From the NCBI RefSeq assembly GCF_900105865.1, contig NZ_LT629804.1, forward strand, positions 1,934,243 through 1,998,242: 64,000 nt of DNA, read 5' to 3'. A program made the translations under genes and the position numbers. Shown piece after piece: positions 1 through 4,896 of this stretch. How positions within the stretch are numbered: the stretch's first letter is position 1; every line of letters begins with the position of its first letter. The DNA comes from Arcanobacterium phocae. Its GTDB lineage: Bacteria > Actinomycetota > Actinomycetes > Actinomycetales > Actinomycetaceae. Under the pieces are notes generated by a model that saw nothing but the letters and a program-made list of their open reading frames with translations, was not told the DNA's origin and searched no databases.

Positions 1-608
1 AAATTGAGATCAAACGTTCCCGCTTTATCACGCTGATTCGCCGTGTTGAAACAGCAGAACAAGCCCGTGGCTTGCTTGCCGATGCGCGCGCTGAGTTTCC
101 TGACGCACGGCATCATTGCAGTGCTTATATTGTCTCAGTTCCGGACGCCCAACCGATACACCATTCGTCCGACGACGGCGAGCCTTCCGGAACTGCCGGT
201 CGCCCGATGCTCGACGTATTAATTGGATCCCAATTAACTGATATTGCAGCGGTAGTTGTACGGTATTTCGGCGGAACGCTTCTTGGCACTGGCGGACTAG
301 TACGAGCCTATTCTGATTCGGTGAAATCTGGCCTTGCGGGAGCTCCCCTGGTTTCCCCTGTCTCGCGGGCTCTCTACACCGTAACGTTGCCGCATACTAG
401 CGCTGGAAAGTTCGAAGCAGACGTACGTGCCCGCGGCTACGCCGTCGTTAATACTGAATATGGCGCCGCTGGAGTTACTTTCCAGGTGGCAGTTGACGAC
501 GGCGAGACGTTCGCGGTGCTTATTTCAGAGTTCACTCGAGGTCAAGTTCAACCGGAGTTTTCTGGCCGCATAGTTACCGACGAACCAGCGGGACATATGT
601 CACTTTAG
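1..608 (+). CDS. YigZ/IMPACT family protein, 5'-truncated
   Basis: The reading frame is open from base 3 to the stop at 606-608, so the gene enters from upstream and about 200 C-terminal codons are present. The N-terminal part reads EIKRSRFI and HHCSAY, and the middle has YFGGTLLGTGGLVRAYSD; both are characteristic of the YigZ/IMPACT (UPF0029) fold. The C-terminal region matches the ferredoxin-like second domain. In eukaryotes IMPACT affects Gcn2 signalling; the bacterial role is not established and ribosome or RNA binding is only proposed. The TTG at 72 is internal, because the conserved N-terminal motif lies upstream of it. Family is confident, function is not. Confidence 0.9.
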   Translation, partial: IEIKRSRFITLIRRVETAEQARGLLADARAEFPDARHHCSAYIVSVPDAQPIHHSSDDGEPSGTAGRPMLDVLIGSQLTDIAAVVVRYFGGTLLGTGGLVRAYSDSVKSGLAGAPLVSPVSRALYTVTLPHTSAGKFEADVRARGYAVVNTEYGAAGVTFQVAVDDGETFAVLISEFTRGQVQPEFSGRIVTDEPAGHMSL

Positions 609-686
609 CCATGCTCACGGCGAACAGCAGATCAGCTAGTTGGCATCAACCCCAGCTTCGCCGTACACTGGAGATGTTTATTTTTC

Positions 687-692
687 AATAAT
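687..692 (+). promoter_or_regulatory. Candidate -10 box for the cysteine operon
   Basis: AATAAT at 687-692 is five of six to TATAAT and lies about 27 bases before the leader ORF start. A good -35 is not obvious 17-18 bases upstream. If used, the transcript would start near 699 and carry about 155 bases of leader before cysK. Confidence 0.35.
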
Positions 693-718
693 GATGCTGA
701 GGCGGAAGGAGAACACAA

Positions 719-784
719 ATGACCATGTTCGTTTCACTCTTCACCGCATGTCATTGCACCTGTCTACAGGGCGTCAAGCTTTAG
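719..784 (+). CDS. Cysteine leader peptide (putative attenuator uORF)
   Basis: ATG at 719 follows a strong Shine-Dalgarno (GGAAGGAG, 704-711) at normal spacing and opens a 21-codon ORF ending at TAG 782-784. The peptide begins MTMFVSLFTA and has cysteines at residues 11, 13 and 15 (ACHCTC). Three Cys codons within five codons, 69 bases before cysK, is the arrangement of an amino-acid-sensing leader. Cys-rich upstream ORFs in mycobacteria are known to act as cysteine-responsive attenuators. Here the ORF has a real ribosome-binding site, not a leaderless start. The last codons overlap the 5' arm of a hairpin at 771-811. Function is inferred from position and content. Confidence 0.65.
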   Translation: MTMFVSLFTACHCTCLQGVKL

Positions 785-811
785 TTGTGTACCTGCGTAC
801 ATGCTTGGCGC
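771..811 (+). promoter_or_regulatory. Leader hairpin overlapping the end of the cysteine uORF
   Basis: GCGTCAAGC (771-779) can pair with GCTTGGCGC (803-811), nine base pairs with one G-U. Inside it GTAC/GTAC (789-800) forms a small second stem. The 5' arm covers the last codons of the uORF, so a ribosome stalled at the Cys codons (749-763) would leave it free to fold, while one reaching the stop would unwind it. There is no U-tract, so an effect on translation of cysK or Rho access is more likely than intrinsic termination. Confidence 0.4.
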
Positions 812-853
812 TCGAAAGTATGAAACGTAAATTTTAACTAGATAGGAAGCCTC

Positions 854-1780
854 ATGCTCTATAGCAATGCAACTGAACTTATTGGAAACACCCCGCTGGT
901 ACGCATCAATCACCTTACGGGAACCAACGCAACCGTCGCTGCAAAGCTCGAATATTTTAATCCAGCAAACTCAGTCAAAGATCGTATTGCTGTTGCTATC
1001 ATTGACGCCGCAGAAGCATCTGGTCAACTCAAGCCCGGTGGCACAATCATCGAAGCGACTTCTGGTAACACCGGAATCGGTCTAGCGTGGGTAGGTGCTT
1101 CCCGTGGCTACAACGTCATCTTAACTATGCCTGAATCGATGTCCAAAGAACGCCGGGTGCTACTACGTGGTTTCGGAGCCGAGCTTATTTTGACTCCTAA
1201 AGGTGACGGCATGCGTGGCGCCGTCGAAGCTGCAGACAAGCTCGTTGCCGAAACCCCCGGAGCTATCAAAGCATCCCAGTTTGCAAATGCTGCTAATCCG
1301 CAAAAGCATTACGAAACCACCGGTCCAGAAATCTGGAATGACCTCGATGGAAACGTCGATATTTTTATTGCTGGCATTGGCACCGGCGGAACCATTACCG
1401 GCACCGGAAAGTATCTCAAAGAACGCAACCCTAATCTCAAGATCATTGCAGTCGAACCAAGCGAATCACCGCTGCTTTCCGAAGGTACTACTGGGCCGCA
1501 CGGTATCCAAGGAATCGGAGCTAACTTTGTGCCGGATGTACTCGATACTCAGCTCTATGACGAAGTACTCCCAGTCTCTACCGAGGACGCATTAGATTTC
1601 GCTCGGCGGGCGGCTCATGAAGAAGGGCTCTTGGTAGGTATTTCTTCCGGCGCTGCCCTAGCAGCTGCCGCAACCGTTGCTGCCCGTCCGGAAAATGCCG
1701 GTAAGACCATCGCGGTTATCATCCCTGATTTCGGCGAACGGTATATTTCAACGCCATTATTCGCCGGTCTAGCAGACTGA
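854..1780 (+). CDS. cysK: Cysteine synthase (O-acetylserine sulfhydrylase)
   Basis: 308 residues, the normal size for CysK. This PLP enzyme makes L-cysteine from O-acetylserine and sulfide in the cytoplasm. The PLP lysine is K42 in NSVKDR, the substrate-binding loop TSGNTGIGL starts at residue 69, and the PLP-phosphate loop GTGGT is at 176-180. Start ATG 854 is preceded by AGGAAG. cysE follows after 14 bases, so the two form an operon giving acetylserine and then cysteine. Expression is probably controlled by the cysteine leader ORF upstream. Confidence 0.97.
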
Positions 1781-1794
1781 TTGGAAACCTACTG

Positions 1795-2376
1795 ATGCAT
1801 GATCATCCGCCATTGTTTAAGCAAATGAAAGAAGATATGCAAGCTGTAATCAAACACGATCCGGCAGCGCGTAATCTTCTCGAAGTGTTCCTAGCCTATC
1901 CGGGTGTTCATGCCGTGTGGGGTTACCGCATTGCCCACCGCATGTGGGGTCATAATTGGCTCAAAACACCAGCACGAATCTTCGCTCAAGGGGTCCGCAC
2001 ATTTACCGGGATCGAAATACATCCGGGTGCTGAACTTGGCCGCAGACTATTTATTGATCACGGCATGGGCGTGGTTATTGGCGAAACTGCTGAGGTGGGC
2101 GACGACGTCGTTATCTTCCATGGAACCACGCTCGGCGGGGTCTCGATGTCCGAAGGCAAACGCCACCCCACCGTCGGTGATCGCGTGGTGATCGGGTCTG
2201 GCGCAAAAGTGCTCGGACCAATCACAATTGGAGACGATGTTGCTATCGGCGCAAATGCGGTGGTTGTTAAGGATGTTCCAGCCGGAAACACCGCCGTTGG
2301 AATCCCCGCAAAAAATCGGCCTGCCAAAGACAAAACAGAAACCGGTGAACAGCTCGATCCGGCGATATGGATCTAG
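1795..2376 (+). CDS. cysE: Serine O-acetyltransferase
   Basis: 193 residues; acetylates L-serine with acetyl-CoA to O-acetylserine, the substrate of CysK. The C-terminal half is a left-handed beta-helix of hexapeptide repeats ([15 protein letters not shown] and [18 protein letters not shown]), with the conserved IHPGAELG and [11 protein letters not shown] segments. This is the short EpsC-like type, lacking part of the N-terminal helical domain of E. coli CysE (273 residues). Last gene of the cysK-cysE unit; a terminator hairpin follows eight bases after the stop. Confidence 0.96.
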
Positions 2377-2383
2377 GTACGTT

Positions 2384-2408
2384 AATGCCCCCGATTATCG
2401 GGGGCATT
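2384..2408. terminator. Bidirectional terminator between cysE and rpiB
   Basis: AATGCCCCC (2384-2392) and GGGGGCATT (2400-2408) form a perfect stem between the convergent genes cysE and rpiB, followed by a T-rich stretch on the plus strand. Confidence 0.85.
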
Positions 2409-2415
2409 ACTCATT

Positions 2416-2859
2416 TTACTTTTCGTAATCAGCCATCATGTCAATCCGTGACTGATGCCGAGATTCTGGATCAAATCCAGTGCTTAAGAAAATATCAACG
2501 AAACGCGTCGCTTCTTCTAGAGAATGTTGCCGAGCGCCGATCGAAATCACGTTTGCGTTATTGTGCTCGCGCGCTAGCGATGCAATCTCGTCATTCCACA
2601 CCAGAGCTGCTCGAACGCCAGCAACCTTATTAGCTGCCATCTGTTCCCCATTACCAGAACCGCCAATAACGATTCCCAGCGACCCCGGATCCGCAATAAC
2701 CGCTTCGCCAGCAGCAAAACACACTGGCGGGTAGGCATCCATTTTGTCGTAGGTTTCGTAGCCGTGGTCAGTGACGTCATGGCCCTGTCCACGCAGATGC
2801 TCGATAAGATGGGCTTTTAATTCAAAACCGGCATGATCTGCCGCAATATGTACTCGCAT
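2416..2859 (-). CDS. rpiB: Ribose-5-phosphate isomerase B
   Basis: 147 residues of the RpiB/LacAB family, interconverting ribose 5-phosphate and ribulose 5-phosphate in the pentose phosphate pathway. Visible features are the N-terminal MRVHIAADHAGFELK, the phosphate-binding loop IGGSGNGEQMAANK and the REHNNANVISIGAR segment. The frame stays open upstream to 3099, but that part is out of family and overlaps the divergent peptidase gene, so ATG 2859 is the start. Only 36 bases separate it from the peptidase ATG at 2896, so both promoters must be compact or overlap coding sequence. Confidence 0.94.
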   Translation of the reverse strand: MRVHIAADHAGFELKAHLIEHLRGQGHDVTDHGYETYDKMDAYPPVCFAAGEAVIADPGSLGIVIGGSGNGEQMAANKVAGVRAALVWNDEIASLAREHNNANVISIGARQHSLEEATRFVDIFLSTGFDPESRHQSRIDMMADYEK

Positions 2860-2895
2860 GTACATTAGTCTACCCACATCCGGTAGGCTTATTCC

Positions 2896-4896
2896 ATGAG
2901 TATTGATACCACAACACAACAAGTGACCGATGCGCTCAACGCTTCGGTTCGCCCGCAAGACGATCTTTTCCGCTTTGTCAATGGCACTTGGATCGAATCG
3001 ACACAGATTCCCGCTGACCAAGCTTCTGCCGGTTCTTTCATCGATCTGCGTAATCAAGCAGAAGAAGACGTTCGTACGATCATTACTGAACTTGCTCAAT
3101 CAGGCTCGGACGATCCGGATGCAGCAAAGATTGGCGCGCTCTACAACTCATTCATGAATGAAAGCGTCATCAACGGACTTGGCGCAACCCCACTAGATCC
3201 CGATCTGCGATTGCTTGATTCCGCACATACTAAAGCCGATCTGGAGATGGCCATTGCTCAGTTTTATTCCACTGGCGTTGGCGCACCATTCGGGATTGAG
3301 ATAGACGCTGACCGTAACGATCCGGATCGCTATATTCCATGGGCGTATCAGTCCGGTCTTGGCCTGCCCGATGAGGCCTTCTACCATGCTGATGAGTATG
3401 CCCCTATTCTGGACGCCTACCGAACTTTCATTCCTACGTTATACTCACTTGCAACTGGCGCCAACGATGTGGAGGCTAAAGAAGCAGCTACTCAGATTCT
3501 TGCTGTCGAAACTGCCATCGCGTCTCACCACTTCACTGTTGTTGAATCGCGCGACGCCGAGCTAACCAACAATGTTATGGATTATGACGATTTCACCGCG
3601 CTCACCGGCAACTTCGGGCTAAAAGCCATTTTGACCGCGCTCGGTATCACTGCTGACAATGCCCCGCAGATCCTCTGTATGACGCCACGTGCTTTCACCG
3701 GTTTGGGCGAGGTCTGGGAATCGTTCGACGTCGAAACTCTCCGCACCTACCTGCTTTGGCACCTGATTCTGGCACGTGCTCCATACCTAGCAGATGACAT
3801 CTCGGCCGCGAATTTTGCATTCTATGGCACCGTACTTTCCGGCCAGGAAGTTCAGCGCGACCGCTGGAAGCGCGGCGTAGTTTTGGTCAACGGTGGCCTA
3901 GGCGAAGCCGTTGGAAAGATCTATGTTGCAAAACACTTCCCGCCAGAGAACAAGGCCAAGATGGAACAGCTTGTTGCTGATCTACTTGCCGCTTACCGCG
4001 AGTCAATTTCTACCTTGGACTGGATGACCGACGAAACCCGCGAGCGCGCACTAGCCAAGCTTGCCACGTTCACTCCGAAGATCGGGTATCCGGTAAAGTG
4101 GAAAGACTATTCCGCACTGGAGATCTCGGAAGACGATCTTCTCGGCAATATTCGGGCGGTTTCGAAGTTCGAGTTTGACGAGAATATCGCACGTCTGGGT
4201 AAGCCTGTGGACCGCGACGAATGGCATATGACACCGCAAACGGTTAACGCCTACTACAACCCAGTCATGAACGAGATCGTCTTCCCAGCCGCGATTTTGC
4301 AACCGCCGTTCTTCGACGCCGAAGCTGATCCAGCCTGGAATTATGGCGGAATTGGTGCCGTTATTGGACACGAAATTGGGCATGGCTTCGACGACCAGGG
4401 TTCAAAGTACGACGGTAGTGGCCGGTTGAACAACTGGTGGACCGAGGCCGACCTTGCCGAATTCACCAAGCGAACTAAGGCGCTCGTCGATCAGTATTCT
4501 GCTTATGTCCCAGCACAGTTCCCACCTGATTCCCCACATCATGTGAATGGCGAATTAACCTTGGGCGAAAATATTGGCGATTTAGGCGGTCTGACGATCG
4601 GTCTGAAAGCATATAACATTGCCTGCAAGCGTGCCGGTTTAGCGTCGTCGGAACAAGCTCCGGTCTTAGCTGGGCTCAGCGGCATTCAGCGCGTTCTTCT
4701 CTCCTATGCTCGCATTTGGCAGGAGGTACGCCGTGATGAACTTATGCTTCAGCGAGTAGCAACTGATCCGCATTCGCCGTCGGAATTCCGATGCAACGGC
4801 GTGGTCAAGAATGTGGACGCTTTTGCCGAAGCATTCAATGTCCAACCTGGTGACGCGCTCTATCTCGCTCCGGAGGAACGAGTTCGGATCTGGTAA
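2896..4896 (+). CDS. M13 family zinc endopeptidase (PepO-like)
   Basis: 666 residues, typical for neprilysin-like M13 peptidases. The zinc motif HEIGH is at 492-496, continuing HGFDDQG, and the third zinc ligand is E558 in LGENIGDLGGL. NAYYNP, the usual substrate-binding motif (NAYY/NAFY), lies upstream. There is no signal peptide or membrane anchor, so this is a cytoplasmic oligopeptidase like many actinobacterial M13 enzymes. A GNAT gene follows after two bases, so they are probably co-transcribed. Intact; confident for family, not for substrate. Confidence 0.95.
   Translation: MSIDTTTQQVTDALNASVRPQDDLFRFVNGTWIESTQIPADQASAGSFIDLRNQAEEDVRTIITELAQSGSDDPDAAKIGALYNSFMNESVINGLGATPLDPDLRLLDSAHTKADLEMAIAQFYSTGVGAPFGIEIDADRNDPDRYIPWAYQSGLGLPDEAFYHADEYAPILDAYRTFIPTLYSLATGANDVEAKEAATQILAVETAIASHHFTVVESRDAELTNNVMDYDDFTALTGNFGLKAILTALGITADNAPQILCMTPRAFTGLGEVWESFDVETLRTYLLWHLILARAPYLADDISAANFAFYGTVLSGQEVQRDRWKRGVVLVNGGLGEAVGKIYVAKHFPPENKAKMEQLVADLLAAYRESISTLDWMTDETRERALAKLATFTPKIGYPVKWKDYSALEISEDDLLGNIRAVSKFEFDENIARLGKPVDRDEWHMTPQTVNAYYNPVMNEIVFPAAILQPPFFDAEADPAWNYGGIGAVIGHEIGHGFDDQGSKYDGSGRLNNWWTEADLAEFTKRTKALVDQYSAYVPAQFPPDSPHHVNGELTLGENIGDLGGLTIGLKAYNIACKRAGLASSEQAPVLAGLSGIQRVLLSYARIWQEVRRDELMLQRVATDPHSPSEFRCNGVVKNVDAFAEAFNVQPGDALYLAPEERVRIW

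Follow-up and report, generated by a model that had tools for sequence, protein, structure and literature searches.

The cysK-cysE Locus and Its Leader

The window, by which we mean the whole 64,000-nucleotide stretch of Arcanobacterium phocae DNA that was analysed, carries cysK and cysE one behind the other on the plus strand, with a short open reading frame and a hairpin before them (Table 1). The window ends a single-contig genome of 2.0 Mb, and its CysK shares 99% identity with that of Arcanobacterium phocae 20171, in line with the genus Arcanobacterium. The short frame is unannotated, 69 nt separate its end from the cysK ATG at 854, and its three cysteine codons are TGT 749–751, TGC 755–757 and TGT 761–763, the last of which is the invariant UGU described below. 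A previous sequence-only reading of this DNA had proposed a frame of 21 codons at this distance from cysK, led by a Shine-Dalgarno sequence (SD) and with cysteines at residues 11, 13 and 15, and the sequence, the SD GGAAGGAG and the TIGR01139 match of cysK confirm it. It had also described a nine-base-pair hairpin that overlaps the end of the frame; the overlap is real and the size was wrong, the actual stems being 11 and 6 bp long. Its claim that the leader is SD-led and not leaderless agrees with the position of the SD, with a predicted −10 ~50 nt upstream of the leader ATG and with the 5 or 6 of 6 matches to AGGAGG found in 78 of 92 leader calls from the family (below), a count to which our choosing of starts partly by their SD contributes. 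Among the 1846 short frames of the window (ATG or GTG starts, 8–40 codons, both strands), three cysteine codons within five occur in 12 and an SD with at least 5/6 matches in 36; the leader alone combines the two.

Table 1. Positions of the features of the cysK-cysE region in the window.
Feature	Position (strand)	Remarks
Candidate promoter	640–669 (+)	TTGGCA 640–645, 18 nt spacer, TACACT 664–669
Conserved 5′ UTR start GTTTATTTTTCAA	676–688 (+)	Exact in 6/9 genus loci
Leader SD GGAAGGAG	704–711 (+)	7 nt 5′ of ATG 719
Cysteine leader ORF	719–784 (+)	21 codons, ATG 719 to TAG 782–784, peptide MTMFVSLFTACHCTCLQGVKL
Putative sensor codons TGT CAT TGC ACC TGT	749–763 (+)	Cys 11, 13 and 15
CAG at the codon of the usual first stop, UAG	767–769 (+)	First stop lost in the window lineage
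Conserved hairpin	769–813 (+)	769–779/803–813 (11 bp), bulge 780–786, 787–792/797–802 (6 bp apical stem)
Second in-frame stop UAG, inside the bulge	782–784 (+)	Stop used in the window
cysK SD strand TAGATAGG	839–846 (+)	8 bp possible with Cys-codon strand CCTGTCTA (759–766)
cysK, cysteine synthase A	854–1780 (+)	TIGR01139, 435.5 bits, cut-off 350.95
cysE, serine O-acetyltransferase	1795–2376 (+)	TIGR01172; downstream of cysK
Intrinsic terminator-like hairpin at operon end	2383–2409 (+)	12 pairs, 7 G-C, then CTCATTTTAC

The candidate promoter has 9/12 matches, and the scanned region holds four such sites against 2.5 ± 1.5 in shuffled sequences, which taken alone would make a weak case for it; a similar −10 (TACACT, TAGAAT, TAAACT, TAGAGT or TAGACT) stands at the same place in six of the nine genus loci. 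Just 3′ of the candidate −10 lies GTTTATTTTTCAA, which also occurs at this place in genus loci L002–L007 (exact in L005, where there is no leader, and with one mismatch in L007), is absent from L008 and L009, and has no other exact copy in its own genome; it may represent a promoter or regulator element. We discarded ATGTTTATTTTTCAATAA, a mini-ORF at the 5′ end, as a conserved frame because L004, L005 and L007 lack its ATG.

A Hairpin Overlapping the End of the Leader

The 3′ end of the leader ORF runs into the hairpin, and the leader's stop codon lies within the seven-base bulge on the hairpin's 5′ side. The predicted folding energy is −22.9 kcal/mol (z = −3.7), and 2/200 shuffled sequences fold as well; for the longer stretch 695–880 the folding excess is weak (z = −1.6, 17/200 shuffles as good). 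Covariation among 93 sequences from the family is extensive: 94.6% of the alignment cells pair, double-sided changes are found in 14 of the 17 pairs, and 125 cells have such changes compared with 33.2 ± 4.7 in shuffles (0/500 as high) and 8 to 24 in slid registers, although an alignment fitted to the structure flatters all of these numbers. A MAFFT alignment of eight sequences gave six double-sided cells versus 1.9 in shuffles (0/500).

Two minor features of this region may be mentioned here. A TTG frame at 785–823 (+), directly 3′ of the leader stop, encodes LCTCVHAWRSKV; among the plus-strand genus loci compared it is present only in L001 and L002, and it probably arises incidentally from the hairpin sequence. 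In loci of genus g4 (L068, L073, L075 and others) the bulge often holds GACA or GACAC, a complement of GUGUC at the last cysteine codon, so that a lineage-specific pseudoknot would be possible there; as a general pairing of UGUC with the GACA bulge of the many g4 loci that have it, the pseudoknot was not upheld, since in the bulge/apical tile the own sequences do not exceed swapped ones (genus-mean excess 0.22, t = 0.48).

Distribution of the Element

The sequence-only reading had seen the logic of a cysteine attenuator in the region upstream of cysK-cysE, and had set conservation of the cysteine codons and SD in close relatives as the point on which this could be refuted. cysK is present in 9/9 genus genomes and a cysteine leader plus hairpin lies upstream of it in 8/9, and such comparative conservation supports the proposed logic. 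The leader peptides of the genus end in CHCTCLQGVKL, CHCTCLKGVKL, CCTCLKSVRL, CSTCLMGVRL, SCTCLRSVRL, CCCTCL, CQCQ and CQCL. The ninth genome, G003, has kept cysK and the promoter-proximal stretch at its locus L005 and has lost the leader and hairpin, and the element is dispensable there. With cysK close behind the promoter region, L005 is a natural attenuator-less relative for comparison.

A covariance model (R1) built from the eight genus sequences matches 93 of 200 genomes of the family, once in each and in 18 of 36 genera, and in 93/93 fetched loci the match lies upstream of cysK on the same strand. A cysteine-bearing leader could be called in 91 of these 93 (the exceptions are L100 and L104, and as L100 has no ORF call of any kind there are 92 leader calls). 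The model rebuilt from the 93 loci (R2), which can serve as a search model for the element, matches 112/200 family genomes in 22/36 genera and finds nothing in the other 88. Within the order R2 matches 55/347 genomes, 23 of the same family and 32 of other families (E 6e-5 to 0.01); seven of these 32 weak matches were fetched (L148–L154), and six lie before cysK behind a cysteine leader, L152 being the exception. Across the phylum it matches four of 396 genomes, namely the window's own and three others, and the stretches fetched from these three contain neither cysK nor cysE.

A search by CysK similarity alone reached further loci, and 27 of the 80 named ones have the core UGU-NNN-UAG-RG[CU] within 420 nt upstream of cysK. 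Carriers include Cellulomonas, Promicromonospora, Sanguibacter, Isoptericola, Actinotalea, Paraoerskovia, Sediminihabitans, Cellulosimicrobium, Serinibacter, Bowdeniella and two Gordonia. The Gordonia loci (L178 and L187) have the hairpin and the UGU-NNN-UAG core before cysK and, by reading, a single cysteine codon in the leader, and their element may reflect horizontal spread or be an old remnant. When 26 genomes were searched for cysK and 24 loci besides L005 were inspected, six had the UGU-NNN-UAG-RG core, three more (L259, L266 and L280) a cysteine leader by reading, and the remaining 15 neither. Two pattern searches were abandoned: the loose pattern GGGCGTCRRGCTTT with one mismatch hit 189/200 family genomes and its reversed control was also widespread, which made it useless, and a class-wide pattern hit 15/394 genomes against more than 20 by reading for its reversed control (one match, L239, resembles members of the order).

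The Last Cysteine Codon, Its Distance to the Hairpin, and the Stops

Three regularities run through the family loci. The first is that the last cysteine codon is TGT in 91/91 leaders, while the other cysteine positions have 62 TGT to 163 TGC and the long frames of the window 88 UGU and 104 UGC. Part of this invariance could be due to selection of matches, the R models having been built on UGU sequences; the loci reached by way of CysK, for which the pattern also allowed UGC, are all UGU as well (27/27, a few of them family members already counted). As to its role, UGU may be a slower codon read by wobble, or it may pair elsewhere; its possible partner, GACA or GATA, is present in the 25 nt before cysK at only 36/121 loci and before cysE at 8/51. 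The second regularity is that the first base of this UGU and the first paired base of the hairpin are 8 nt apart in 92/93 family loci; in L061, the only exception, the alignment took an earlier UGU, and by reading a second UGU of this locus stands at the usual distance. Two sharp questions follow: what keeps UGC from the last cysteine position, and what holds the hairpin at one exact distance behind it.

The third regularity concerns the stop codons. An in-frame stop is found at +6, at the base of the hairpin, in 75/93 family loci and at +21, in the bulge, in 38/93, with both present in 23, and 15 of the 18 loci that have no first stop have the second. The window is one of the lineages without the first stop, and the last five residues of its peptide (QGVKL) result from this loss. 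Over the 93 loci, the two alternative frames together have a single stop at these codon indices. Outside the family the second stop occurs in 0/29 loci, an informative value; because UAG at +6 was part of the pattern by which these loci were chosen, their first-stop count of 29/29 is uninformative. Over 122 loci and the eight codons up to the last cysteine, cysteine codons number 376, 68 and 10 in frames 0, +1 and +2, respectively. Two places for the stop, together with only one stop in the alternative frames, argue that the frame is translated, and we consider the tandem stops good indirect evidence of leader translation. At the level of sequence, the comparison establishes the ORF, its SD, the in-frame cysteine codons, the UGU-to-hairpin spacing, the tandem stops and the covarying hairpin before cysK in 93/93 family loci.

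Predicted Pairing between the Leader and the cysK Ribosome Binding Site

How might events in the leader reach cysK? Both the minimum free energy and the centroid structure predicted for 755–853 contain a stem, CCUGUCUA (759–766) with UAGAUAGG (839–846), that closes around the hairpin and buries the cysK SD (z = −2.5 for the minimum free energy fold with this pairing, 6/200 shuffles as good). Across the genus, changes in one strand go with changes in the other (CCUGUCUA/UAGAUAGG, CCUGUCUGAG/CUCAGAUAGG and CCUGUCUAU/AUAGACAGG, with one mismatch in L043 and L044). The match of each leader with its own SD ranks first of 120 permutations for five genus lineages, and for seven genus loci 0.3% of the permutations are as good. 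The ribosome binding site (RBS) of cysE, used as a control, scores lower in 7/8 genus loci (L045 is the exception). Among 49 long-frame starts of the window, a set that includes cysK itself, the cysK start is the only one to reach a score of 8 with its own leader, the next best being 7.0. A convincing leader:SD pairing is absent from L045 and L046, two of the eight genus loci. The predicted openness of the RBS in the genus increases from 0.43 when the leader is free to 0.54 when its last cysteine codon is covered, with a rise of more than 0.05 in 6/8 loci and a fall in one.

Outside the genus the predicted openness hardly moves (0.56 to 0.57 in g4, 0.50 to 0.51 in the rest of the family and 0.52 to 0.54 outside the family; of 122 loci, one without a cysK start and three with long gaps were left out). 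Predicted duplexes of the leader with the cysK RBS and with the cysE RBS average −10.5 and −11.5 kcal/mol, respectively, and cysK has the better one in 20 of the 50 loci compared (p = 0.20; the other 72 of 122 were left out, 71 having no cysE in the stretch and one no cysK start). Tests of own against swapped sequences gave t values of 1.6–2.3, 11–13 of 18 genera in the expected direction and a mean rank of 0.36 where chance is 0.5, which is a weak trend. Leader-RBS pairing is 0.27 compared with 0.18 for shuffled leaders and above them in 12/18 genera (six of the 93 loci, with gaps >230 nt, left out). Of 18 tile tests, that of the leader with the 5′ region (−75 to −50) gave the highest t, 2.76, and given the number of tests we do not build on it. 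Masking of the SD across the whole family was set aside, since the trend is weak at most and the cysE control goes the opposite way; in the window and its genus SD masking is a supported hypothesis, based on predicted pairing, that is not demonstrable family-wide.

Proposed Mechanism and Its Alternatives

From these features we infer leader translation, stalling and SD release, the last of which is supported for the window genus only. That cysteine is sensed through ribosome stalling appears very likely to us, and we prefer stalling as it explains the cysteine codons, the SD, the fixed spacing, the stops and the nature of the gene. The fuller reading, a ribosome-mediated, cysteine-responsive attenuator of cysK-cysE with release of the SD as its output, we hold with moderate confidence, and SD release is a reasonably probable output step in the window. 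It would work as follows: ribosomes would load at the leader SD and translate the 21 codons. With ample Cys-tRNA they would pass the three cysteine codons and leave, the hairpin would close, and the free Cys-codon strand (759–766) would pair around it with the cysK SD (839–846) and lower cysK translation. Under a shortage of Cys-tRNA a ribosome would halt on the cysteine codons, above all on the last UGU, where the spacing would put its leading edge at the base of the hairpin, and by covering the Cys-codon strand it would leave the cysK SD free. Canestrari and colleagues are said to have proposed in 2020 that ribosome pausing at leaderless polycysteine uORFs of Mycobacterium likewise frees a masked RBS.

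A different emphasis would make the hairpin a ribosome-gating part and not a terminator, and the whole a previously undescribed structured class of cysteine attenuator in the Actinomycetales, which we offer tentatively, as possible rather than probable. With the hairpin beginning 8 nt after the first base of the UGU, a ribosome on the last cysteine codon would have to pry its base open; a wobble-decoded UGU combined with this obstacle would make one exact codon the sensor, and a stop at the hairpin base with a backup in the bulge would fix the point at which the ribosome exits. The output would then differ by lineage, SD masking in Arcanobacterium and other routes elsewhere.

Transcription attenuation, in which the hairpin, or Rho after it, would halt RNA polymerase if ribosomes clear the leader quickly and a ribosome stalled on the last cysteine codon would keep the basal pairs open and let transcription go on, is in our view unlikely, and yet it has several points to its credit. 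Of the parts that could give the output it is the hairpin, and not the SD pairing, that is conserved, the UGU-to-hairpin spacing would seat a stalled ribosome on the basal pairs, Rho was proposed for terminator-less cysteine leaders in a 2005 study (PMC1262725), and in L063 of genus g2 the hairpin is directly followed by TTTTTT and would be a textbook intrinsic terminator in that one lineage. Against this, the terminator hairpin with U-tract of a trp-type attenuator is lacking in nearly all the other loci: the 8 nt 3′ of the hairpin contain 0–2 T in 75/93 loci and at least 5 T in 4/93, the window not among the latter. Terminator-like structures between leader and cysK are found in 15/121 loci, again without the window, where only 40 nt (814–853) separate hairpin and cysK.

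It is very unlikely that the RNA is a structured element with a ligand or protein partner of its own to which the cysteine ORF is secondary. The observation that would favour such an element is that the apical stem next to the bulge keeps its sequence in the family (GUGC..GCAU) beyond what pairing needs; conservation of the bulge is however explained in part by the in-frame second stop that it holds in 38/93 loci. In the outside-family loci found via CysK the apical part differs by look and the UGU, the UAG and the basal stem are retained, so the apical stem looks family-specific (Gordonia apart) and the basal part reaches beyond the family. The window (1–3000) and six further loci gave no match above the gathering score to any of 4227 Rfam covariance models, and matches below it were to families of other kinds only; a T-box, riboswitch or other known RNA was ruled out on this basis.

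SD-led uORFs can aid downstream expression by loading ribosomes, and the leader might do only this for cysK, or protect the mRNA, with no sensing of cysteine. The variable distance of 34 to 397 nt between the end of the model match and cysK in the family loci speaks for it; the clustering of cysteine codons before a fixed hairpin in 18 genera and the invariant UGU would be left unexplained, and we judge it highly improbable. That so very short a frame arose by chance and has no function has next to no credence, contradicted as it is by conservation, frame bias, tandem stops and covariation.

Relation to Known Leaders

The element appears to represent a known kind of regulation, and our comparisons would extend ribosome-sensed cysteine control from mycobacteria to the Actinomycetaceae and their relatives, with an SD-led leader. 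Cysteine leader peptides have been predicted for the cys operons of Mycobacterium and P. acnes as well as upstream of B. longum cbs (PMC1262725), a cysteine uORF with ribosome occupancy lies before cysA2 of M. smegmatis (PMC4633059), and attenuation by leaderless polycysteine ORFs, reportedly validated in M. smegmatis, is attributed to Canestrari et al. 2020 in PMC9031893 and PMC13236596 and the polycysteine attenuators to the same work in PMC9094748. As cited there, the Mycobacterium attenuators share with the window a cluster of cysteine codons near the end of a short ORF before cysteine genes, and differ in being leaderless, whereas the window ORF is SD-led with a predicted 5′ UTR, its cysteine codons alternate, and a covarying hairpin stands at a fixed distance behind the last of them. 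The PMC1262725 leaders are also short actinobacterial ORFs with cysteine runs near the stop and no obvious terminator; for them that study gives no conserved terminator-capable hairpin, in contrast to the conserved hairpin here. A. naeslundii is among the genomes of that study, and its available text names no Actinomyces cysK leader (the word cysK occurs 0 times). No open-licence paper retrieved on a cysK leader, on a uORF with cysteine codons or on an RNA motif of this sort in these bacteria describes the element, and the invariant UGU, the fixed hairpin distance and the second stop in the bulge were found in none of the open-licence literature searched. What seems genuinely new, going by the sequences compared, is the SD-led leader, the covarying hairpin locked to an invariant UGU, and the tandem stop.

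Two other actinobacterial elements resemble it in part. The LEU element of leuA (PMC1262725) has a codon run that was likewise proposed to pair with a downstream SD around internal structure, and it differs in its leucine codons, its pseudoknot and its gene. The ilvB-II motif of Corynebacterium (PMC10272879) similarly combines a conserved uORF and covarying stems before a biosynthetic operon, and differs by its intrinsic terminator and U stretch, which nearly all members of the present group lack.
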